Shown here one piece after another: positions 13,352-48,994 of a DNA stretch of 64,000 nt. The position numbers and the translations under genes were made by a program. Where the stretch lies: assembly GCA_010015805.1 (NCBI GenBank), contig ML978127.1:1736001-1800000 (forward strand), given 5' to 3'. Source of the DNA: Rhizodiscina lignyota (taxonomy: Eukaryota > Ascomycota > Dothideomycetes > Aulographales > Rhizodiscinaceae). Every line of letters starts with the position of its first letter. The stretch's first letter is position 1. The notes beneath the pieces are model-generated. The model was not told where the DNA came from and made no database searches. It saw only the letters and a list, made by a program, of their open reading frames with translations.

Positions 13352-16300
13352 ATGGCGGACGACCAAATCTCCGTCATTCTGGAAGAATATGACGAGGATG
13401 GCGACCAAATCATTGAAGATATCGCTCAATATGGCCAGATCAATGTGCCAGATCAGTCTATACAGGGCATTGATGAAGGCTACTCCTTTGATGATAATTT
13501 AGTCCGCCCTATGACGCCGAATGATCGCCCAGAACTGAACGCTTCCGTCACTCCGCAAACTCGAGCGAACTCGGAGAATGTAGTACATCAGGCCAGTAAC
13601 AACCCCACAGGAGCCAAAACTTTTCATCTTCGCCCGGCTTCTTCAGGAAGTGATGCTCAAGGATTTGTTTTTGGCAAGGCGCCGGTGCCGACGGACCTGT
13701 ACGGCCGAAAGAAAGACACAGGCTCCGGGGATGGCAATCGACGTAATAGCGTCATACTCAATGAGAGAGATGCTGCCCTGTTACGTATCCCAGCTCGCGA
13801 AACTCCCTCTCAAATTGCCTCCGCCGGTGCTACCGAGACTACAACGGCGAATCCTCCCCAGATCGAACCAGCCGGCTCACGTGTGAATCAGCAGCGTGCA
13901 CCGACCGCAGTCCATTCAAAACAAAACAAGGCACGAGTAGCAAAGGTGCAGCATGTCCAGTCACGCGGCACCAAGCATCAGGAGTAAGCACGAGGCATTC
14001 TCTCCGTATGTCGTGGGCTAACACCTTCAGTGGGGAGAGCAATCAACAGGGGACGTCTCATCGACGTCAAGATCACGAAGATGAGAGGTTATCTAAAATG
14101 ATAACGGAGGATAGCCCAACCACCAGCAGTGCGATCCAAGATGCAGTTGGCAGCCCTGCGCCCTCCAGAACTGGCGTGCAGAAAATCAAGGTCTCGAAAA
14201 TGGAGCTCCGAACGATTCCAAAAATTACACCTCAGCGACGAAGCAAAGAAAATGCGTCTCGATTGCCTCACACAAACGTAGCTGTTGCGACTCCAAATAT
14301 CATTCAGCAGCCATTTTCCATCCCGCCGACGCCGCAGCCAACTTCACCAGCCAAGCCACCAAATATGCATGAGCAAGAAGATGCTGGAGATATCCTCGAC
14401 ATATTTGGAAGTTCCAATTCACCACACAATCCACCCATCGAATTTGATCATACGGCAGAATCTCGTGAAGGCAAAGAGAATTTGGAGGCGATATCTGGCG
14501 ACCATAATTATGCAGAAATGCATCGAGATGGCCCTTCAATTACGTCTAATGAAGAAATTCTAGATTCAGATCTGGCGACAGGGCAACACTGTGTTGAAAT
14601 GATCGACGATGAAGATCAACAGGCTCCCCATGATGCCTGTGAAAGTGGACCAACCCTTCCTGGATCTGAATCCGGCCCGTCTAACCCCAGTTGTGAAATT
14701 CCAGGTACTCCACAAGAGCCAGAAGCCATTCCAGCGGATTTAGTCTTCCAAGATCGCTTATCTTTGGATCGTGTAACTTCAACAGCTCGGGAGTCACCAG
14801 ACGAAATACTTGAGTCCATTACGCCTGGTCCTCGACAGGAACACCGAAACCTCATTAGACAGACCCCAAGGCCACAGCATCATGTGCCACAGACTCTGTC
14901 TCCGACGAAGCAACCAGCTATTCTGCATCGTCCTTCTGATCGGGAAGGGCCAGTAAAAGTAACGAAGTCACGATCCAAATCAAGGCTGAAGCCAGTTAGT
15001 GTACCATCTCAAACCCCTGCGACTGCAACACCATCTGTAGGAGATGTCTTTCGGATTTTACAGTGGACTATGGAGCAGGAACAGCAACGCTCCGCTGTCG
15101 AAACAGAAGATCGCTATCGAGCTTACCACTCCGACATTGCCAATCTGAAAGCATCTGAGGCGAACAAGGAAGCTCAGCTGGAAGCTGCGCGCAAGGAAAA
15201 TTCCGCCCTTATCGAGCAATTGCGCGACGCTAAGGCAAAGCTCGGCAACTACGGCGAGAGACTCTCCCAACTCACGAAGTTCGTCAATGGCCTCGGATCC
15301 GACCTTGACAAGGTACGAGAACATGGCAGAAGTTTCGGAAAGCATTGCGAGGATCTGGTACTTGAGTCCAAGACGCGACATGAGGAGCGGAAGCAACTTC
15401 AGGAATATTTTCAGACATGTGTGACTACCTCGAGCAAGATCAAAGATCTTGTTTCAAAGGCTTGTCGAGCAGCCCAAGTTGAGCGTCAAGACATCGAAAG
15501 GCGAAGTGAGGAAGTGCAAAAGAGCATCGAAGCGAAGACAAATCTGCTGCAAGGAGAGAAGGCAAGAACTGCCGAACTGCAGGATCAGTTGAAAAAGGCC
15601 GTGGAAGTACAAGGCACATTGAAAGATCTCTTAGAAGAGAAGTTCGGAGGCATGTCGCAGAAACTGGCCTCGATGCACCAAGATATCGCGACCATCATGG
15701 GAGCTGGCACGGCGGAACCGGAGTTGGGGGTCCTTGGAGATCAAGTCAAAGAGCTCTGTTCCAAACCTATTTGCTCTCCTGCAGACTTTGAGAAGGTTGA
15801 GAATGCTGTTCAGCAACTGTCGGACAAGTACTCCCCCCTTGAGAGTTTTATTCCCTGTCGAAGTTATTAACTTGAAACAGGATGTCATCTCATTTTCAAA
15901 CTTTCACGATTGCGGGCACTGACAGAGCGAGCACTGAGAAAGCCATCGAAACCCAACTCAAGGAGCAACTCGTCGAGATCAAAATTGACATGTTGAATTG
16001 TCAGACTTTGCAAAATGAAATTGTGGAAGTCCGAGCATCAAAAGTTGCATTTGAGGAACGATGCGCAGCCAAGGACGCTTCAATTTCCGGGCTTGAAGGA
16101 CAGCTCGCAGCTCTTCATGAGAAGGAGGCAGCCTTCTCAGAGAAGCTCAGCCAAGCAGAGCTAGAGATCAGCCAACTAAAGCTTGCCGCAGAGACTCACC
16201 AGCGAACCGCAACACGTCTCCATGAGCTCGAATTGCAGAACTCGTACATAAACCAGCAGCTTAGCAGTGCGAAAGAGGGATTACATGTCGAAGTCGAGAA

Positions 16301-18583
16301 AGCCTCGTCGCTTCAAGAGAGCGAGGCGTTATTGAAGACGCGCGTAGAAGAATTGGAGCAGCAACTGGCCAGCTCTTCGAAGGACTCGGCAGATATCGAA
16401 GCTATAAAAGCTGAGGCTACTCGTTTGGTATACATGATCACATGATACTTGATACGTATTTCACTGACTGCCTCTAGGCTGAACAACGGATCAACGAGAG
16501 ATGTAGCGAGATCACTCGTGATGCCAACAAATTCCATTCCGAGAAGACTGCCGAATTCGACAACAAGCTGCATCAAGAAAAGCAAAAGAGCCTAAAGACG
16601 GAAGATTTGCTGAAACGGATTCAGAATGAACTGTCAGAAGCAAAAGCGAAACTTGATGCAAATCACCAGGCTTCCGTAGCAGCTCAAACTACCCGAACGG
16701 AGATGAATGTCTTGCAGGATCGCATCAAATCTCTGCAAAAGGGTCTAGATGAGAAGGAAAATGAGCTTTGTGAATCCAAGGAGGAGAACAAGAAAGTATC
16801 TGAGGAGCAGGCACGCCAAAAGCGAGCTGAGATTGCAGAAATGGAAAATCAGCTCAAGGCAGAGGCTGCCGCTCGGAAGACGGCAGAATCAAATTATGAT
16901 CGATTGCAGAAGCATATCGATAACCATGTGAAGGAACAGGAAGAGAAGAGTACTCGACAAATTGAAGGATTACACCAACAGATCGCTGAGACCGAGAGGG
17001 AAAAGAATGAGATACACAACAAGCTCCAGAAGGCGATGAAGGATGCCGAGCATGCTATTAAAGCTGCGAGCGACAAGCATAAAGCGGAAGTTGGTGACCT
17101 CCAACGTCGACTTCAGGAAAGTGAAGGGAGTCGGAATCAGGCTGAGCAAGATTTACGAAGGCTCAAGGACTCCGTTCGAGGGCAACTTAAAGAAGGACCA
17201 ACTTCCCAGGCCATCACTGAAACAATCAAAGCATCGGAGTCTCAGAATGTCGACAGTCAACTCAGACATCCGCGAAAGAAAGTGAATCGACAGAACCAGT
17301 CTATCATCGAGGTGCCAAGATCGTCCTACGGCATTCAGCAGCTGTCTTCACGGACCAATGCGCCGAGAGATGAGTTCAGCCAAGGACAGTATCAAGATGT
17401 CTTCGATACGTTCATTGATGCCGGAGATGAAACTATCGGACAGAGCCAATTCGCTTCGAATCCTATTCCCTTCTCGCAATTCAACAACTCAAAACCCCTT
17501 CCAGCAACTCAAGAAGGTGCTAGCAGCTCTTCGCCATTGTCCGACGCTCGATCCATCTCAGATCCTGATGCGTCAAAAGAGAACCAGCGGACCCACACAC
17601 CTGCAGCTCTTCGTGGCCGCAGTGAGAAAAGGGTGTTGCGCGAATTAACTGTAAATGCAACCACGCCTGATCGTCCGGAAGGAACGCCGGTACCAATGCC
17701 TCCTCAGCGAGAGTCAAGCAGCCTCGGACGCACTCAGCCTTTAGCGAACCCTTTTGATATGTACGATTCTCCAGGCGCGGGCTTAGAGGGACTAGAGGTT
17801 CCGTCACTGTTTCGTCCCCAATCCAACAGCGCTTCCCAAATCATCCATGAGCACTCAAGGCCAACTATCTACGAGGATAAGATGCCTCATCCCCAATCAC
17901 AGCATGGGTTGGGCGAGCGTGGAGCACATGATATGAATACAAGCCTTCTGCAGCGTCATGAACCTATGAGGAGAAGCCTAATCACGATGCCGGCCGACGC
18001 ACGCAAAGTGCCCGCCACGAACAATTCCAGCACACCCGATTACATGCAGGACAGCCCACTTCTAAGTCAGAAGAAAGCCACGACATATGGCCACCACTCA
18101 TCTAGCCGCCCGAATTCTGGACCCTCACGTCGGGGCTCGACTGTCGCTAGAGCGACGCCTGCCACAGAGCAGCACGTTGAGCAGACCTTGCGGCACTCTG
18201 CGTCTAAGGAACGCAAGCGACGAGCAACCGCAGAGACCGTGCCAGCACAGTTCAGTCCGCCTGCCAAGCGTCTAAGGACAAGAGAAGAACGTGACTACGC
18301 AGAGTTGAGCTCTCAGGGTTCCCAGGCGGGATCACAGTATGCTGCTTCTACCCAAACGCCGTCGCGCAGCGTCTCCATGAAGGCGTCGCAGACCCAGCAG
18401 CCGAAATTCAAGACGTCACAATCGCAATCGCAGCAGAAGCAGCTCCATGATGTTCCGCTTTCAACACGAGCGCGAATTGGTTCATCTAATGGGCCTAAGC
18501 AATCTGCTGGAAGGGGTGGAAGTAACAGAGGTAAGAAGGGTACCGGAAACGAGAGGTACAGTGCGAGATTTTCACAGAAATGA
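13352..18583 (+). CDS. large coiled-coil protein (about 1693 residues), function unknown
   Basis: Four exons join in phase. Introns are at 13984-14030, 15828-15880 (an alternative acceptor at 15925 would remove 15 residues and also keep frame) and 16428-16477. Exon lengths 632, 1797, 547 and 2106 sum to an exact codon number. The first about 560 residues are acidic, then Pro/Ser/Thr-rich and disordered. About 560-1230 is long coiled coil (Glu/Lys/Gln/Leu heptads). The last about 460 residues are again disordered, rich in Ser/Gln/Arg/Pro with basic clusters (PAKRLRTREERDY), and look nuclear. No ATPase or kinase motif is present. It could be a chromosome, spindle or meiotic scaffold, but I recognise no family. 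Confidence 0.72.
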
Positions 18584-20414: not shown

Positions 20415-23400
20415 ATGTTGTCGTTTCTTGAAATGTCTCGAGGAAAGCCCACTCAAGATCCTGCCTCTTTGACCTCCGATGGATCTAACCTAGATCACTC
20501 GTCTGATGCACAACCATCTTCACAGCCATCACACACGGGTGATCATCAGCACTCTTTCATAGTTTCGACTCCCCCAAAAGCAATCAAAGATCATATCCGA
20601 AGGCATTCCATTTTCGTCCATCGATCACGCCAACATATGAAGGCGCGCACGACGAAAAGGTCGCGACAGGCCCCAGAGAAGATTCCAATCAGCATTGGGA
20701 CACGCCTCCTCTACTACTGGGTCATTCTCGTTCAGATACTCGGTCCCTTTGTAGCTTCTGCACACCCCCGGGTCTTCAATTACCGGCCACGCGGAGCTGT
20801 AAAAGAACTTTTCAAAACCGTGTGCGATGAAAGGCATAATTGTCACCTGGTGGTGAGTAGTCTGGCCTCGTGTCGGTCAGCAAAGGATCATGCTGATGCT
20901 CAATATTAGCCTATCATTGGTCGTATTGCCGAACCACGAAGTGACGTGCGGACTGCAGAAGTACCTGCCGAGACCGACTTGAAGAGCAAGCCCATGAAAG
21001 AGACTGAGGAAGCTGCTGCGAAAAAGGCTGCTCAGCAGAATTATCGGCCATCAAGCAACGAAAACCAGGCCAACGGCGGACAAAGTTCAACGAACATGAA
21101 AACACAGAAGTTCACAAAAGAAAAAGTGAAATTGGTCGACTCTTTGATTCAGAGCGGTTTCCAAGCCATCCAAACGTGGATAAACACTACACATCCGGCT
21201 CCCTCCGCAAACCACGAGATTGCTTTCCTTCGTCATAGCTTCCCAAATTACAACGGTGGCCTCCCGTGTGGCCCTTCTGGATGCAGTATCCCATCTCTTA
21301 CAGCCCTTCTCGGAATAAGTAAGTCACCAACGCCGGAAGACATTGCAAATCACATGGCTCTCTATCTAATGTCAAGTGGCTACGCGTTCAAAGGACTCAT
21401 CACTGAAACATCCGAACAAGTTGCGAACGGTGCCCGGCCGTACTGCGAACAGTTGAGCGAATACTTCCTGCACAATGAAGACAAGCCCATTGCTTGTGAA
21501 ATATTTTTGCAAATCCTGCTATGGACTTTGACTGGTGCTGCGGCTTTTGAAGGAGGCTTTGCTTTGGCAGCTCCATTGGCGGAATTCACCGCAGCATCAG
21601 CAGTCACAGCAGAGGTAGAGGGGAGTGCCTTTACGGCCACGCTGCTCCGAGGCACGTCGAGTTTATTCACAGGAATATCCAGAGTGGGCGTAGCTTTGAA
21701 TATGGGCCGGGCAGTAACAGTTCCCATTACTTTAACTCTAGCAGCAGAGGCGGAGGTGGCAGGTCTGGATGGGGCAGGCATGGCTGCTGTGGACTGGGCA
21801 GTGGATATTTTTATAGAAGACACTCTGTCTTCAACCCTTTCAGAAGAGATTGCTGGGTCTGTTACGGAATCCATTGCGGGGTCTATTGCAGAAGGGAGCC
21901 TCAGCTGGGTGGCTGCAGAGCCCGGTTACGGGGTTGTCGTCCTCGCCGCTGCCATCACTGGAAATCGGTTGGGCACATCATTTCAGGAGCTCATGGAACA
22001 ATGGCGGGCCGCTGAGCGGCCAAAGGCGCCTCAGCCCCCACCAAGACCTCCACGCAATGAGTCAAAAGAGCAAAAGCCAACCCCAGGTCACTCTCATATC
22101 GTGCTGGACCCAGACAACCCTTCCAGATTTCATGTACATGAATGGAATCGACCTGGGTATCAGGAATATCGTTACCACTGGAGGGAGAGTCATCCTGCAA
22201 ACCACAATCCGGAAGGCCAACGGCCGACGCGACCCACACACCATGACAACGAGGAACATCAACAAAATCAACAGACTCATGAGACTCAAGAAGACCAAGA
22301 GCATCAAAGCGATGAAGGGGATGGCGTTCCATCGACAGAAGACACACCTCAACCGGATCCAGAAGAGAGCGTAGAGGTGCTGGAAGATCTCGAGGAAGAT
22401 CTCGATGAACTCCTTGAGGAACTTGGCGTGCCAGAGAGCGAGGAACCGGATCTGGACGATCGACATGACAGCGAGGAGGACGAGCAGGGGGACAATCAAG
22501 AGAATCAAGAGGATGAAACTCCATCAAGAGAGGATACATCGCAACCAGATTCAGAAGTTAGAATAGAGCCGTGGGATGAAATCGTCAAAAACATCGAAGA
22601 AGAGGAAGATATCGAAGAAGATATTCCAGAAGAGGAAGAGAGCGAGGAAACTGACGAGGAAGAGAGTGAGGAAGAGATTCCAGAGAGTAAAGAAGAGCCT
22701 CCAGAGGGCGAGGAAGAACCTCCGGAGAGTAAAGAAGAGACTCCCGAGAGCGAGGAAGAGACTCCAGAGAGTAAGGAAGAGGCTCCTGAGGAAGAGACTC
22801 CCGAGGAAGAGGCTCCCAAGGAAGAGGCTCCTGAGGAAGAGGCTCCTGAGGAAGAGACTCCTGAGGAAGAGACTCCTGAGAGCGAGGAAGAGACTCCTGA
22901 GAGCGAGGAAGAGAGTAAGGAGAATAACGAGAACGAGGAGCAAGACACCGAACAACAGAACGAACAAGGTGGGGAGCCAGGCACTCCACCGGGCTCGCCT
23001 CCCGGTTCTCCTTTCACCATCTTCGAATCGAAGAACGGGACGCTGATACCAATGGATCCAAAGAAAATCAGGAAACTTTTCAACAGTGGTGAGTTGTACC
23101 ATTGATGCTCCGATTTTGTTGGCGCTGGACCTGAAGTGCCCCAAGCTAAATGTGTTTTCTCGGCTTAGGATTATTCAACCTCACCGAGAACAATACTGAT
23201 GAGGGCAAGACGAAACGTGCGGTAGATTATTCAGGAGCATTAGTTGATGGCATGCTCATTCTTGCCAACAGTGGGCCTGTAAGTTGCCAAATTAGTCAAA
23301 CGTGAGTTCCTCACTAGTTGCTTACCCGGACAACAGGTCTATGAGAAGGAGTTGCAGACGACTATGTGCGGAGAAAGGATGTACCTTGCCCCCGAGAAGG

Positions 23401-27300: not shown

Positions 27301-28619
27301 ATGTCGCGTTTCTTAGCAGTTGCTTTAGCCGCGCTTCTCCAATTATGCACCAGCCAGAGTCTTACAACTGACCCTGGAGTTTACGGACCAGAGCTCGAAA
27401 TTGCGCATCTATACTACGATGAATGGCCTACTGGAATAGCCGTCTCTTCAACTGGTCGCATGTTCTCCAATTATCCGCCTGGTCTCGATGCCGCCAACCT
27501 CAACGACGGTAAGAATGGCAAGTACACTGTCGCAGAACTCGTCTCAAACACAACCGAACGTCCATATCCGTCTGCCGAGTGGAATAATCCTCCTGGTGGA
27601 AGCATCAATTATACCACCAACCCGCCATCTGGAGCTAATTATCCTAATTATCTTATTGGTGTGCAGTCCGTAGTCGTCGATCCGGCAGATAGGCTCTGGA
27701 TCCTCGACACTGGGCGTGCACTGCTCCCAGACTCGTCTGCGCTAGTTCCATCCTCTCCTGGAGGGCCAAAGCTCATCGGCGTCGACCTGCACGACAACAA
27801 GATTTTCAAGACCATTCTGTTTCCGCCGACGGTCGCATACGCGGACTCATATCTCAACGACATCCGCTTCGACTTGCGCTCTTCCCTGACCTCTTCCGGG
27901 AAAGGCATTGGATACATCACTGACAGCAGCACGGAAGGCCGGAACGGTCTCATCGTCGTGGACCTTGGCTCCGGCGAATCCTGGCGCTATCTCGACACTA
28001 ATCCGACTGTGCGACCCGAAGGCCAGTTCCTCGCATTCTTGTGGGGAACATCATTGTACTCTCTGCCCAGTCCGAATGCCTCGCTCGCGCATATCAACTT
28101 CGGCTCCGACGGAATCGCGCTGGGTGCGGACGGCGAGGACTTGTATTGGGGCGCTGTGGGATCACGGTACATGTACTCGATCCCGACAAGCGCGTTGAGA
28201 GCGCATGGCGGGCCAACCGATGAGATTATGGCTCAATCTGCTGTGCGGAATCGCGGCCAGAAAGGTGTGAGCGATGGCTTCGAGACCGATAGCAATGGCC
28301 GCATCTACGTCGGGAACTTTGAGCAAAACGCGGTTAATTTCTACGACCCCAAGAATGGGACGGTGGAGACATTTGTTCGAGACCCAAGACTCAATTGGAT
28401 CGATACGAGTAGGTCCCCTTTTGTATTGTGAACCGATTAGATTTTTGCTGACGATTGTGTCCAGTGTCCGTTGCGACAGACGGGTATCTGTACTTCACTA
28501 ATAATCAACTAGCTTTTAGTGCGGCATACTGGCCGGGAACGGATCGTAGGAAGAAGCCTTACACGCTGTTCAGAGCGAAGCTACCTGAAGGCGGAACAAA
28601 AGTAACTCAATCATCTTAG
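27301..28619 (+). CDS. secreted major-royal-jelly/Yellow family protein
   Basis: A 420-residue protein with a signal peptide (MSRFLAVALAALLQLCTSQS) and the six-bladed propeller of the MRJP/Yellow family, known in many ascomycetes. Evidence includes YDEWPTGIAVSSTGRMF near the start, VVVDPADRLWILDTGR, DLHDNKIFKTI, YLNDIRFDL, YITDSS..GLIVVDL and DGFETDSNGRIYVGNFEQ. One intron at 28409-28464 joins NWIDTMSVATDGYLYFTNNQL, a conserved last blade. The open frame begins at 27187, but the ATG at 27301 gives the signal peptide. Several NxS/T sequons support secretion. Some relatives bind or oxidise small amines or act as lactonases; no function is assigned. Confidence 0.9.
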
Positions 28620-39609: not shown

Positions 39610-42600
39610 ATGGCTACTGAAACATCCACTAATGGTGGTAATTCCATCATTGACCCTCTGGCTCCCGAGCAGACCTACACTGTCGACGCTTCCAAGAAGG
39701 ACACCTCGCATAAACCGACCATCGAGGATGTGATCGACGAAGAAGATCTTGAGCATCCACCACCTTCTATGCATCTCGAACCCGGCAAAACAAACAATGA
39801 TAGTGCTTCTGGTGCAGAGACTGTCCTTTCTGAGAAGGCTGCTGGCAAGCAAAAGGCGGTTGATGAGCCAGCTGCGGAGGCACCCAAGCCCGCTCCAAAG
39901 CTCGATGTCACCTCCGAGGAGGCATTCCCAGCTCTCGGAGCGCCAAAGGGAAAGGCGGCTGCATCTGTCTCTTCGGCATGGGGCAAGAAGCCAACAGCTG
40001 CCGGCGCTAATGGAATCAATGGCGGTGTCAACGGCAAAACACCCACCAGCGGCATCTCGTCTCGATCCTCCACGCCAGCATCGGGCATGCGTACGCCTGC
40101 ATCGATGGTACCACCTCAGATGGGCGCTGGACGAGGTCCGCAAGGCATCAGTCTTCCCGGCCGTCACTCCGACTACATTCAATTCGCTCCATCCGAACTG
40201 ATCCCGCCGAACCAGCTGAAGTCATCGAGACAGGAGGTCATCAGGGATATCAATCGCAAGTCAAAGGCCAAAATTGAGATGAAGCCTGGCTTGACAGGAA
40301 ATACCATCATGTTCTCTGGAACTGGACCCCAAGAATCTGTTCGGGAAGCTCTCCGCGAGGTCGCGTCAAAACTCGGCTCCAAGGTAAGGGACTGCTCTGA
40401 CTCCCACACTTCATATAGGATACTGACCATGTGTAGCAAACGGTCAAAGTCCCAATCCCAGCCTCTGTCCGTCCTCACATCATCGGCCGTGGTGGTGCAA
40501 CGATCCAGGGTATCAATAAGCGAACTGGTGCAAGAATCCAGGTGCCAAAGCAAGACGAAGGCCCCGATACCATGGAAGATGACAGCGCAACCATTGATGT
40601 GATCGTTGAAGGCGATGCGATTGCTTGTGGATTGGCGAGGCGTGATATCGAGAGCATTGTCAATGAGAAGACCTCCACCGTCAATCTGCGCCTGAAGGAG
40701 ATTCCACCAGAGTACTACCCATTCATTGTGGGACCATCCAATGCAGGAATAAACGCATTGGAGGATGGTCGCGATGTTCGCGTTCAGGTTCCGAACTACT
40801 ACCAATGGGCAGATCAGGCTCCGACGCCGCCCCCTGGCCAAGGTCAGCCTGCAACATTCACTCCTCAAGCGCGCCATCCGATCTCTATTTCGGGCGACCG
40901 CCAGCATGCTCAGGAAGTACAAGCAGAGTTGGAGCGTCAGGTAGAGCAGTTGCGCCGCCAGCTCACTATGGATCAGATGGATGTGGAGCGTGGTCGACAT
41001 CAGTTCATCGTTGGCAACCGAGGACCGTCCCTGCAGGACTTCCTTGAAGAAACTGGATGCTCGGTTATCTTGCCACCGCCTGGAGATGACAGTGAGGTTC
41101 TTACCATTGTTGGGCCTGCAGACAAGATTGAAGCTGGTATGAACAAGGTCATGGATCTCGCTACAAGCATGTCTATGGCGAGTGTGGATATTGCTCGCCA
41201 ACATGCGCAAACTGCTCCAGACCCGCAGATGCATGCTCGCAACCTTACGCGATACTTACAGCAACGACAAGCACTCGAGCAACTGGAGCGCATGCACAAC
41301 ACTAGCATCGTATGTCCCGAATGCCGCTCTGGTGGCCCGACGGCTTGGGAAGTCTTCGCACAGGATGGCAAGAATACCATGCGCGCACGCAATGATATCA
41401 TGCAATTGATCAACGCTCATCCCCCATCAAGGACAAGGAACCTAAACGTTGATCCCTTCTTCCACGAACATCTTCAGCAGCAATACGCTCAACAGCTTCG
41501 TCGAGAATTTGGTGTGCACGCTTTGTTCCCCCAGCCAGAAGAAGTGGATGACTTCCCGCACATCGTTCTAGTCTATGAAGCCCCTGGAACTCCGTCAGAC
41601 TATGAATTGCCTCGTCGCCAAGGCCAACCATCTGCCGCTGAAGTTAAGGAGTTCGAGAAAGCCCTTGCTCAAGCCGAACAGCAGATCATGGAGCTTATCC
41701 AATCGCAGCAAGACGTTGCATTGCGCCAGGTTGATGCGAATCCCAAATTCCATGACAAAGTTAAGAGATACGTCGATCGTGAGCAAGCTACTCTCTCTCC
41801 GGATCAATTCCCTGTACAACTCCTCTTCAATCCTTCGCCTCCTTCGGGCCCTCAACAGCAACGACGACCTAGTGGAGTCCAAGTACGGGGTCCAAGCCCT
41901 GCAGTTGACGATCTTACTGCTAAGATCTTGGCATTCCTGGAACAAGAGGAGAAGGACGAACTGGAGCGTGGCTACACGATGTCGTTCGAATTCCCAAGCA
42001 AGTTTGCCAACTTCTTGATCGGCAAGCGCGGCGAGAACATCAAAAAGCTGCGCGACGAGTTCGATGTCGACATCCAGGTCGCAGATGGCAAGGTCGATCT
42101 CAAGGGTCCGCAGGCCAAGTGTGAAGCTTGCAAGAAGGATATTCTGAAGAACTTGCAGAAGTGGCAGGATGAGACAACACACGTTCTCAAGATCAAGCCG
42201 CAGTACCATCGCGATCTCATTGGTGCCCGTGGTAGCCAAGTCAATCGCCTTCAGGACCGCTACAGCGTGCGCATTAATTTCCCTCGCTCGGTACAGATCA
42301 ATGACGATGCTACGGATGCTGGTACCGAGGTTGGTAGTGTTCGTAATGCCGGCAGACCCATGCAGGGTCCGGACGAGGTTGTCATCAAAGGTCCTAAGAA
42401 GGGCGCTGATGAGGCTCGCGAAGAGCTGCTCAACCTATTGCAGTACACCATCGACAACTCCAATATCGCGACAGTCTCCGTTTCCCCGGAGCAGATTCCC
42501 AAGCTCATTGGCCAAGGTGGTCGTGAGATGGACAATCTGCGTGTGACCACGGGTTGCCAGATCGATGTTCCTTCCGCTCGTGACCCGACTGGGCCCGATG

Positions 42601-43821
42601 GAAGGGCAGAGATTAGGCTCAAGGGTAGCAAGAAGCAGGTTGAAGAGGCCAAGAAGCTCCTGCAAGAGCGTGTCAAGGTATTCGACGAGACAGTCACGAA
42701 GACTATTGAAGTCGACAAGAAACATCACAAGTCGCTCATTGGCTCTGGTGGTAAGCTGAACAAAGTACATTTTCTCGTTCTTATTTTACTAACTCATAGC
42801 AGGCTCGAACATCCGCGACATCGTCATCCGCGCTGGCGGCCCATCCGACTCCCGCTCGCTTGCGCGCACCGTCCGCTTCCCGCCTCCCAACTCCGATGAG
42901 TCGACTATCCGCGTTGAAGGTTCTGCAGCAGTTGTCGATAAGATTGTTGCTGAACTCACGTCCTATGCTGAGCAGCGTGCCACGCAAGTCACGGACTCTA
43001 TTGCCGTACCCCCAGAGAAGCACCGTCTCCTCATCGGCCGTGGAGGTGAGACACGCCGCGCACTGGAATCGCAATTCAACGTCAGCCTAGACATCCCGAA
43101 GCAAGGCACACAAGGTGAAGCTGCTGGACAAGTCAAAGTCACCGGTCAGCCTTCTGATGTCGAGAAGGCCAAAGCGCATATCGAGTCCCTCGTCAAGGGA
43201 CAGGAAGGCGTTACGGTGAACGTACCCAAACCTCTTCATCACCACATCGCGGATGGTGGCCAGTTCTTCCGTCGTCTGCGCAACGACCACCGTGTCACTG
43301 TCGACCATGCCGGCGCACAGCTCCCTCCCAGGCCTACTGGAGGTGCTGAAGCACGCGGTCGCGTCAACGGCGGCGCTCTCCCGCTCATCACTGATGATCC
43401 GGGTAAGGCTGCCGACGCACATAGCTGGGAGGTTGTTGAAACGCATTCTGGTCTTCCTGACGATTCTACTGAGACAATCCCATGGGTTCTGCGCGGCCCA
43501 ACCGAGGGCGTCGAGAAGGCACAGAAGCAACTTGAGAAGGCGATCGAGGAGGCAAAGAAGCCTTCTGTGACGGGCTACTTGATCTTGCCGGATCCGAGGA
43601 GCTACCGTTTTGTTGTCGGCCCCGGCGGTAGTGGCGTCAACGGGGTGAGGAGAAAGACCAGTACGCAGGTTAAGGTGCCGAGGGGTGGTCCCGGCGCTGG
43701 TAACGGCGGTGGCGAGGCTATTGAGGTCGTGGGTGGGAAAGATGATGTGGAGAAGGCAAAGGAGATGATTCTCGAGCTTGTCAAGGAGGGTGAGGCCAAC
43801 AATGGTGGGCGCAGAGGCTAG
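39610..43821 (+). CDS. SCP160: Scp160/vigilin, multi-KH-domain RNA-binding protein
   Basis: Three exons give 1368 residues; introns are 40384-40436 and 42751-42802. Both splice inside KH domains and restore them (KLGSKQTVKVPIP, and HKSLIGSGGSNIRDIVIRAG). At least ten GxxG-type loops can be read: IIGRGGATIQ, IVGPSNAGIN, IVGNRGPSLQ, LIGKRGENIK, LIGARGSQVN, LIGQGGREMD, LIGSGGSNIR, LIGRGGETRR, IADGGQFFRR and VVGPGGSGVN. The N-terminal 190 residues are acidic and disordered with an EEAFPALGAP motif. Vigilins bind mRNA on polysomes and at the ER and help translation, ploidy control and signalling. ATG at 39610 is the first in its frame and has a fitting context. Confidence 0.95.
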
Positions 43822-46337: not shown

Positions 46338-47133
46338 CTACTCCACGTCTGCTTCCTTGCCCTTGTCGAAGTTCTCGCCCTCCACAAGATCCGGAATATC
46401 GTCATCGTCATCATCGTCCTTCTTCTCTTCGCCGTTCTCGCCGCCCTTCTCCTTCTGCATGCTCTGGTAGCTTTCCGCAAGCTTGCGCAGCGAAGCCAGC
46501 GAGTCAGGACCGAGCTGGTTGAGGATACCCGGAACAAGCTCGGTGAGCTCCTTATCCTCGCCATTGCCGTAGATCGCGAAGGTGTTGGCAGGAACAGATG
46601 CATGGACTGCTCGATACGACTATATTAGCAAGACAGAATTCTCTTACGAACATTGCGCAGCCTGAGAAATTCTCATGACTGTTCACCTTAGCAAATGAAG
46701 GCTTCCGAAGACGTACCCTTTGGTGCCGAGAAGTGTATGACATTTCCGTCAGACTTGAACATGTTGACCTCCTCAATTGCCTGGATAGGCTGCACGTTGA
46801 GCTTCTTCAACGACGTCTGAAGCTTTTTGTCGTCGGTGCCGCTGCTCTTGTGGACCTTCTTGACTTTTCGCCTAGGAGTGCCCTTGCCGCTGTCGGGAGT
46901 AGTGAACGCGTCAATAAGTGCTTGCAACATTTTGACTGTAGAGCAAAGGCGAGGAATGAGGCGTAGAAGAGAGGTATGGTCATTTGTGGAGGAAGCCGTG
47001 GAGGTAGAGTGAAGAAATAGTTTGCTTACCCTGCAACACATTAGCAAAACATTACACTGGAGACTGTGAGGTACCAATTCTACTTACCAATGCGCACTTG
47101 CGCTTGCATCCGCGCGAGCTTTGCCTGATCCAT
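46338..47133 (-). CDS. EGD1: nascent polypeptide-associated complex subunit beta (NAC-beta)
   Basis: Ribosome-associated chaperone subunit. Conserved sequence is restored by exons 47088-47133, a single base at 47030, 46717-46889, and 46338-46606. Introns are 47031-47087, 46890-47029 and 46607-46716, all GT-AG. Lengths 46, 1, 173 and 269 give 163 codons, i.e. 162 residues. The product begins [17 protein letters not shown], continues [15 protein letters not shown] (ribosome-binding RRK motif), then the NAC domain ([59 protein letters not shown]), and has an acidic tail ([10 protein letters not shown]). Without the one-base exon the conserved frame is not met. A longer in-frame variant using the acceptor at 46936 is described in the findings. 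Confidence 0.93.
47030..47030 (-). other. EGD1: predicted one-base microexon of NAC-beta
   Basis: On the minus strand TGTTGCAG is followed by G and then GTAAGC. Only this single G, placed between two introns, makes ATT-GGC-GGC-AAG (Ile-Gly-Gly-Lys) from exon ends ATTG and CGGCAAGG. Confidence 0.7.
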
Positions 47134-48994
47134 GATGGCAGAGAAAGAGTGGAAGGTGGAGGTGAAGAGGAAATCTCGGTGTGGGTCTAAAGAAGCTAAA
47201 TCGCACTGACATATTAGCATTGACGAAAGGCAGAAGGGCCCAGGAAAATTACATACGGTTAATGGAAGATGCTTAGCAAGACATCACTGCCCGGAGTTGG
47301 ATTTGGGAGAGCTGGACGTTGCTTGTGCGTCGAGGCGTGTGATGCCCAGAAGATTGCAGCCACTGGAGGTGGTTTTACTCCGGCGCTGTCGTCTAAACTT
47401 CGGCTGTGGGGCAGGTACTCGCTTAGAGTAAATAATACTCGAGTGAAGATCCCTTCATGTCTCAACATGCAGACTGCTTCAACGTCTAGCTATTGCTTCT
47501 ATGTATCCGTCGGACACATCTAATGTCATTGGAACCCGACATATTCCAGCTCCGCAGTGTATCACACAGACACCTTCAAGTCAAAACTGAATCCCTACGC
47601 GCAAAGTACCTTCGGAGATCCGAACGCCGACCACGAACCCGTACAAAGGCAAAGACTCGAACGCTCGAGTGGACTCAGTTGAAAGTTGAACGTGCTGATA
47701 TCTATCAGCATACTTGTGGCGGAATTGAGCTCACCTGCAAAGCGAGCTAGACTTTGCATTAACATATATCTGTCATGGGCTTTGCTCATCTTGCCAGCGC
47801 CCATGTGGTGATAGACGTAATCGAAATAGCATTATTTTACGCCTCCATCGTGGATAAGTAGAGCAGTGCCTCTATAACTCCGATTCAGCTTGGACTTGGC
47901 GGAGCATGTAACAAGCACCCCTCTGCTAGGGAGAATTTGCTTGTGGTCCATTTTCAACACAGCATCCCATAGCCAATCCTCACCACTCAGCCGCCGTTCC
48001 AAATTGTCGTCCTGATGCATGTGCCCCGTTGAAGGATCATTCAAGCCCGCAAGTCATCTCGGCCGCCCGTTTCTACCGTGCTTGCTCTTTTTTCAGTCCT
48101 TTCGATTTCGATATGTATGTTCCCTCGTCCGTTCGTCTCTCCTATCAGCGATGAATTGCCCGCTGAGCTTTGAGTTGGTTGCTTCGAAGCTCATTTCCGT
48201 ACGGCCATGAATACTCCCCCCAGCCGCAGCTGTGAGGGGAGAGCCACAAAGAACCTACGACAAGACACTGGGAGTCAATTGGCCCCGGACGGTGATATGT
48301 AACTGTTGTTGATGGATGAATCATGATCGGTTGTTGAATGTTGTCGTAAACCCTAACCCTAACCCATGTTACTCCGCAGTGACTTTTAACCCCCATGTTT
48401 CGAACATCGGCCCAGTCCCAGCGACCTCCTCTCTTCAACTATGCCACCACTCGCAAACCTTCCTCAAGAAGAAAAGCCACTACACCTCTCTACACCTGCA
48501 GATCCTTTATCGATGTAACCTGAAAAGCTTCCACGGTACGGAATCGAAGTATCCCGAGTACGAGGCCCCGCGTTGTCGGAAAAGTAGCACTTTTCTCCAT
48601 CCCCTCATTGATGCCGATCAGTTTGTTCGCAAACGGAGATTGTTAATCATCTTGAGAGGAGAGGAGCGGAGTTTTTCGCACTTTTCTTGCTAGTTTCATT
48701 TCGATTTTGGCAATTCTACTCCTTCGACCTTCGCCAATTCAACCGCATGAGGCAGTTCACAATGTCCTTTCCCAGAAGCGTGGATTCCGCCAGGAATATA
48801 CGGGGCGGAGGAAGTCCTTAAATGGACTTTTCTATATTTCGATAGGCTATTGATTCAGTAATCATAATTTCTTGCAAGCCCACTTTGTATATTCTCTGCT
48901 ATGGCGCCGTATATGTACTTGGCAGCATCCTCTTGCTCGGCCTCAACCGAAGCCCTGATATCCACGGCACTCCAGCGGTATCACTGTAATTACC
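47134..48994. other. 1.9 kb region with no supported gene
   Basis: Divergent promoters of NAC-beta and beta-mannosidase. Short frames only. It contains the telomere-like motif listed separately. Confidence 0.45.
48351..48365 (-). repeat. interstitial telomere-like repeat (CCCTAA)2CCC
   Basis: CCCTAACCCTAACCC is preceded by AAA, so it also contains the AAACCCTAA telobox form. It lies about 630 bases upstream of the beta-mannosidase ATG. Confidence 0.7.

Follow-up and report, generated by a model that had tools for sequence, protein, structure and literature searches.

A probable one-nucleotide exon in the ribosome-binding region of a fungal NAC-beta gene

Introduction

NAC-beta, the beta subunit of the nascent polypeptide-associated complex, assists newly synthesised proteins at the ribosome. 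The window, that is, the whole 64,000-nucleotide stretch of DNA analysed here, carries a fungal gene for this protein (EGD1/BTF3) on its minus strand, from 47133 to 46338, with 489 nt of coding sequence and a product of 162 amino acids. The locus raises an unusual question: can the conserved N-terminus of the protein be assembled only if a single G is kept between two introns, as an earlier note on this DNA had proposed? That note placed one-base exons near the lower limit of spliceosome recognition; they are rarely documented, but they are real, and cases are already known from plants and Fusarium. Drawing on one sequence, an enumeration of possible structures, splice-site statistics from 36 predicted introns in one window and conservation relative to BTF3, we consider it highly probable that the N-terminal ribosome-binding region is put together from exon 1, a one-nucleotide exon and exon 3, a judgement that takes in the splicing order and the origin proposed below.

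Results

The gene model comprises the following features, in the order of transcription.

47088-47133, minus strand: exon 1, 46 nt, encoding 15 residues and the first base of Gly-16
47031-47087, minus strand: intron 1, 57 nt, GTAAGT...GCTAAT...TTGCAG
47030, minus strand: predicted one-nucleotide exon that reads G in the transcript and supplies the second base of the Gly-16 codon (G/G/C)
46890-47029, minus strand: intron 2, 140 nt, GTAAGC...CCCGACAG
46717-46889, minus strand: exon 3, 173 nt, opening with the third base of Gly-16, followed by GKGTPRRK...
46607-46716, minus strand: intron 3, 110 nt, GTACGT...GCTAAT...GAGCAG
46338-46606, minus strand: exon 4, 269 nt, stop codon included

Coordinates and lengths of the two GT-AG introns around the single G agree with those first proposed, and the exons (46 + 1 + 173 + 269 = 489 nt) fill exactly 163 codons with the stop included. 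Donor 1 begins at 47087 (ATTG/GTAAGT, slashes marking exon borders), the kept G stands in the context TTGCAG/G/GTAAGC and exon 3 opens at 46889 with GACAG/CGGCAAGG. The single base is thus preceded by AG, followed by GT and flanked by a complete intron on either side, and it connects an exon ending in ATTG with one starting in CGGCAAGGGC.

The identity of the protein is well supported. With a query one Asp too long in the acidic tail, the product matched the Pfam NAC domain PF01849 (E 1.3e-23, 83.1 bits, cut-off 21.3) and, in the PDB, chains of BTF3 (best E 3.2e-50), which we take to be mammalian. The BTF3 alignment runs without a gap from residue 1 to about residue 120; VRIGGKGT, which spans the splice junction, is identical, as are 12 of the 16 residues in the stretch derived from exon 1, and a 31-residue BTF3 chain matches residues 1-30 of the product. 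The junction lies 6 residues N-terminal of RRK (residues 22-24) in the ribosome-binding region, and a single residue separates RRK from the KK at residues 26-27, whereas two residues lie between them in the motif of yeast NAC-beta, RRK-(X)2-KK (PMC4664479). Replacing RRK by AAA in yeast was reported to weaken ribosome binding, and in cells without NAC and Ssb this mutant neither restored growth nor prevented aggregation (PMC4664479). Since its loss changes everything beyond residue 15, the single G would be under selection.

To determine which structures can encode this N-terminus, we enumerated one-intron, two-intron and nested donor- or acceptor-disrupted arrangements with introns of at least 35 nt, taking the first 24 residues as the target. 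Under GT-AG or GC-AG ends, exactly one structure yielded the conserved sequence, namely an intron from 47087 to 47031, the G at 47030 and an intron from 47029 to 46890; none of the single-intron structures did. When AT and AC ends were permitted, one extra structure appeared (GTAAGT/CTCCAC plus GCTTCC/CGACAG), which we set aside as implausible given its poor sites. Joining exon 1 directly to exon 3 shifts the frame and leads to a stop at codon 43, and the middle base of the Gly-16 codon gives glycine only as G. Retention of intron 1 introduces stops, and so does retention of intron 2: once intron 1 has been removed the frame reads ATT GGG TAA, with a stop right after Gly-16, and a donor is therefore needed immediately. 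These results bear out the central claims of the earlier note, that the conserved N-terminus needs the G and that skipping it breaks the conserved junction.

Complementarily, we evaluated the splice signals with a gene finder that was self-trained on the window and blind to homology (its final round predicted 24 genes with 40 introns). As a reference we used 36 of its predicted introns, leaving out the three of the NAC-beta locus and one of 215 nt; the reference introns measure 45-95 nt, and the median predicted intron is 57 nt long. With the locus left out of training, intron 1 outscored 35 of the 36 reference introns. Sites as strong as donor 1 make up a fraction of 0.0001 of the 6800 GT sites, its acceptor and branch site are matched by a fraction of 0.0033 of the 8473 AG sites, and donor 2, the GTAAGC following the G, is matched by a fraction of 0.0151 of the GT sites. 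Among 20,000 dinucleotide shuffles of the 198-nt interval, not one contained an AG-G-GT as strong on both sides, under a model that included intron 1 in its training (leaving the locus out lowers the score of intron 1 from 14.85 to 14.04). Lower thresholds were passed by 2 shuffles (middle) and 12 shuffles (relaxed) out of 20,000, or by 30 when any middle base was accepted under the relaxed threshold, and 578 of the 20,000 held any AG-G-GT at all with room on both sides. Across both strands of the window, 47030 was the only one of 412 scored AG-N-GT sites to be that strong on both sides.

The signals of intron 2 are of a different order. It is longer than all 36 reference introns and outscores none of them, and its acceptor and branch site are matched or beaten by a fraction of 0.1648 (16.5%) of the AGs in the window. 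Three yUnAy-like branch candidates precede the 3' end by 26 nt (CTTAT), 22 nt (TTGAC) and 14 nt (TTCAC), and the next AG after them is the acceptor itself. Judged from the sequence, the conserved protein rather than the strength of the signals defines where intron 2 ends. A rival site lies within the intron:

46890-46935, minus strand: competing 3' end within intron 2, with the acceptor CTCTACAG just before 46935, 46 nt upstream

This acceptor follows a pyrimidine-rich stretch. The 46 nt that it would add, 46935-46890, are in frame with exon 3 when the G is skipped and shift the frame when the G is kept. The earlier proposal of two introns stands in its structure, but it had overlooked both the weak 3' end of intron 2 and this frame-shifting acceptor 46 nt upstream of it. 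It had equally missed that joining donor 1 to the acceptor before 46935, without the G, gives an in-frame protein with inserted residues.

Introns 1 and 3 were recovered by the gene finder, but it read through intron 2 as coding sequence and placed exon 1 in a different frame by inventing a start at 47254. Summed codon and splice scores came to 39.7 for the model with the microexon, 36.9 for the insertion and 38.0 for an internal ATG, too close to serve as an arbiter between gene models; on the sequence evidence, it is protein conservation and not the total score that decides between them. We also considered an RNA structure in intron 2 that would bring branch site and acceptor together or hide the upstream acceptor. 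The intron folds at -11.8 kcal/mol (z 0.23), and 108 of 200 shuffles fold as well, so this idea was dropped.

Alternative structures

The competing acceptor invites the question of whether it is used besides or instead of the one at 46889, or whether translation starts within intron 2, at the ATG at 46930. The products would be a NAC-beta with another N-terminus or, when the G is kept, a dead-end peptide of 23 residues. Taken alone, the acceptor CTCTACAG outscores that at 46889 (1.16 vs -0.90), and donor 2 scores higher with it (3.64 vs 1.77), an advantage that stems from the length term, as the intron is shorter; the chosen acceptor was the top-scoring partner in 34 of the 36 reference introns. 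The ATG at 46930 (context TCAAAATG) shares the reading frame of NAC-beta, and intron 2 is open in the frame of exon 3. The open frame was rejected as a sign of coding, since 1521 of 5000 shuffles are open as well. Moreover, the branch site before 46935 scores 0.9, lower than those of all 40 predicted introns, and exon 1 is clearly conserved, which speaks against an alternative N-terminus. Acceptor and branch site taken together score about equally at the two 3' ends (2.25 and 2.37). We consider use of this acceptor or start unlikely. A single intron running from donor 1 to 46936, or to 46921, would dispense with the G altogether and place an insertion in the N-terminal tail. Both ends are in frame and free of stops, and the acceptors before 46935 and 46920 are the two in-frame ones that we found for donor 1. 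Such an intron would have to bypass a far better acceptor and branch site, however, as donor 1 scores 14.04 with the acceptor before 47030 and 4.49 with that before 46935, and the 46936 end would replace Gly-16 by 16 residues at a point where BTF3 carries no extra sequence; we regard this reading as very improbable. Donor 1 has its second-best acceptor 6 nt beyond the first, before 47024 (10.77 vs 14.04); splicing to it would delete both the G and donor 2.

A sequencing error is a further candidate: a base dropped from the beginning of exon 3 would call for the very same rescue, the true structure then being one intron of 198 nt. This would, however, leave to chance both the highest-scoring intron of the predicted set and a donor one base behind it, a coincidence found in 0 of 20,000 shuffles at full strength and in 12 at the relaxed threshold, and the sequence as given is self-consistent, so that we attach only a very small probability to an error. 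Stwintrons, in which one intron lies within, and interrupts, a splicing motif of another, have been described repeatedly in filamentous ascomycetes, to which the host presumably belongs, and the locus does hold two adjoining short introns. Unlike in a stwintron, the second donor here is unbroken and a single exonic base stays behind, and none of the nested donor- or acceptor-disrupted structures that we enumerated yields the conserved protein, which makes a stwintron extremely unlikely. Finally, the one-base exon might be one arm of a frame switch, in which splicing at a single base tunes the ribosome binding of NAC. The G together with the weak acceptor before 46889 would then give the ribosome-binding NAC-beta, and a dead-end message or a second NAC-beta with a replaced N-terminal tail would come from splicing to the 46935 acceptor or from translation that begins in intron 2. 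We think a regulatory role of this kind distinctly unlikely.

Proposed splicing order and origin

For the preferred structure, with the single G kept between introns 1 and 2, we propose that the 57-nt intron 1 would be removed first by intron definition, being transcribed first and carrying far better signals. The donor that follows after one base, GTAAGC, is unlikely to be bound while the 3' end of intron 1 is still engaged. In the next step, splicing from donor 2 to the acceptor at 46891-46890 would excise the 140-nt intron 2. Sequential removal of the two introns is plausible on steric grounds. Removal in either order produces the same mRNA, and the order is therefore not readable from the sequence. 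The suggestion that the first cut recreates a donor turned out to be mistaken: GTAAGC is intact in the pre-mRNA from the start, and once intron 1 is gone only the bases before it differ, TGG in place of AGG, which raises the score from 2.34 to 2.82.

Intron definition is the mode reported for filamentous ascomycetes (PMC5639578; PMC12403724). For the single-nucleotide exon of Arabidopsis APC11, Guo and Liu considered simultaneous removal of both introns unlikely and left the order open (PMC4674806). In potato invertase, the second of the introns beside a 9-nt exon is removed first (cited in PMC4674806), which is a precedent against an order that begins with intron 1.

As to origin, an ordinary intron may have lost one base near its 3' boundary, after which a cryptic intronic AG-G-GT would have restored the frame. 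Exon 3 is one base short for a single phase-1 intron, and the interval that holds the rescue base is, at 198 nt, more than three times as long as the median predicted intron. By analogy, such a history, of the type put forward for CYP621A of Fusarium, would fit the NAC-beta locus.

Comparison with known one-nucleotide exons

The closest counterpart is CYP621A itself, in which a one-nucleotide exon G, in the context AGGGT, fills the second position of a conserved Gly codon in 20 orthologues and is covered by 18 SRA reads (PMC12940212). Its authors, Nelson and Syed, suggest that a base disappeared from an intron boundary within a conserved motif and that a cryptic AG-G-GT restored the frame, and they call it the first one-nucleotide exon for a fungal gene; the P450 gene itself is seemingly rarely expressed (PMC12940212). 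NAC-beta resembles it in the AG-G-GT, in the position of the base at the centre of a Gly codon, in the phases of the exon boundaries (one upstream, two downstream), in the break in the frame upon omission and, presumably, in having a filamentous fungus as host (PMC12940212). The genes are unrelated, and against the 20 orthologues and SRA reads for CYP621A there is one sequence here (PMC12940212).

In plants, the single-nucleotide exon of APC11, an A, was demonstrated by cDNA and reporter constructs (PMC4674806), and the 1-nt microexon of land-plant VPS55 by RNA-seq and RT-PCR, with alternative splicing in some plants (PMC8831610). As at the NAC-beta locus, one nucleotide lies between two introns of a conserved coding gene and is needed for the frame or the right N-terminus; the plant exons are backed by cDNA, constructs or RNA-seq, whereas the present one is predicted from sequence (PMC4674806; PMC8831610).

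Other systems resemble the locus in part. Stwintrons of Pezizomycotina likewise combine adjoining short U2 introns with two-step removal under intron definition, and one-step missplicing alters their mRNA by one G; in NAC-beta, by contrast, the splice motifs are uninterrupted and one exonic base is kept (PMC5639578; PMC12403724). The ratchet points of recursive splicing in Drosophila also place an acceptor and a donor next to each other inside one apparent interval, but here one base lies between the two and is kept in the predicted mRNA, and the interval is merely 198 nt long (PMC8605326). A recursive site with a zero-length exon, in which GT directly follows AG, was discarded as a description of the locus, as the needed G lies between them. 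A fungal mitochondrial ribosomal RNA gene keeps one base between two introns as well, which in that case are group II introns (PMC12308204).

The one-base exon of NAC-beta would thus be another case of a known type of exon and not a new kind. Should RNA confirm it, NAC-beta would be the second fungal nuclear gene with such an exon in the literature surveyed, after CYP621A, and it would place the exon in a conserved housekeeping gene, unlike the P450 gene. Reads should accordingly be easier to find, and the order of intron removal would become testable. If AG-G-GT supplied the second base of a Gly codon in two fungal genes that are not related, this would also agree with the idea of rescue from the loss of one base. 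Gene predictors may miss a one-base exon, as the homology-blind finder did here. Titles and abstract openings of the papers listed for one-nucleotide exons do not name NAC-beta, and a literature search combining NAC, intron and microexon gave no match. For relatives, pattern matches in viral and genome contigs of bacteria, archaea and their viruses numbered 424/82 and 584/95, none of them confirmed, and tblastn against plasmids and phages returned no match; as these collections cover bacteria, archaea, their viruses and plasmids, absence from them means nothing for fungi.

Other features of the window

Towards the 3' end of intron 3 of NAC-beta (46621-46607, minus strand), a near-ideal branch site, TTGCTAATATAG, is followed a few bases on by an AG at 46621-46620. 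This first AG seems to be bypassed, as the protein needs the AG 13 nt further on (GAGCAG), perhaps because it lies too close to the branch site. The second-ranked AG-N-GT site of the window, at 28465 on the plus strand (GTGTCCAG/T/GTCCGT), combines a strong acceptor, which closes the predicted intron 28409-28464, with a weak donor and is probably an ordinary exon start.

Elsewhere, the window carries genes for COQ5, an Nse-type zinc finger, a Cep57-type protein, a KH-domain protein and a glycosidase, with short predicted introns, and scans for Rfam families and tRNAs gave no match in it. The gene-finder model at 13352-18583 (plus strand) includes a weak predicted intron at 15863-15942 (score 3.89), and the region may be mis-modelled. 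At 22500-23105 (plus strand), a large open reading frame contains long acidic repeats of the EETPESEE type, which probably cause the long open frames seen there in other frames and on the other strand. The gene at 39610-43821 (plus strand), with predicted introns of 53 and 52 nt, encodes a protein with many KH domains that is presumably vigilin/Scp160-like.
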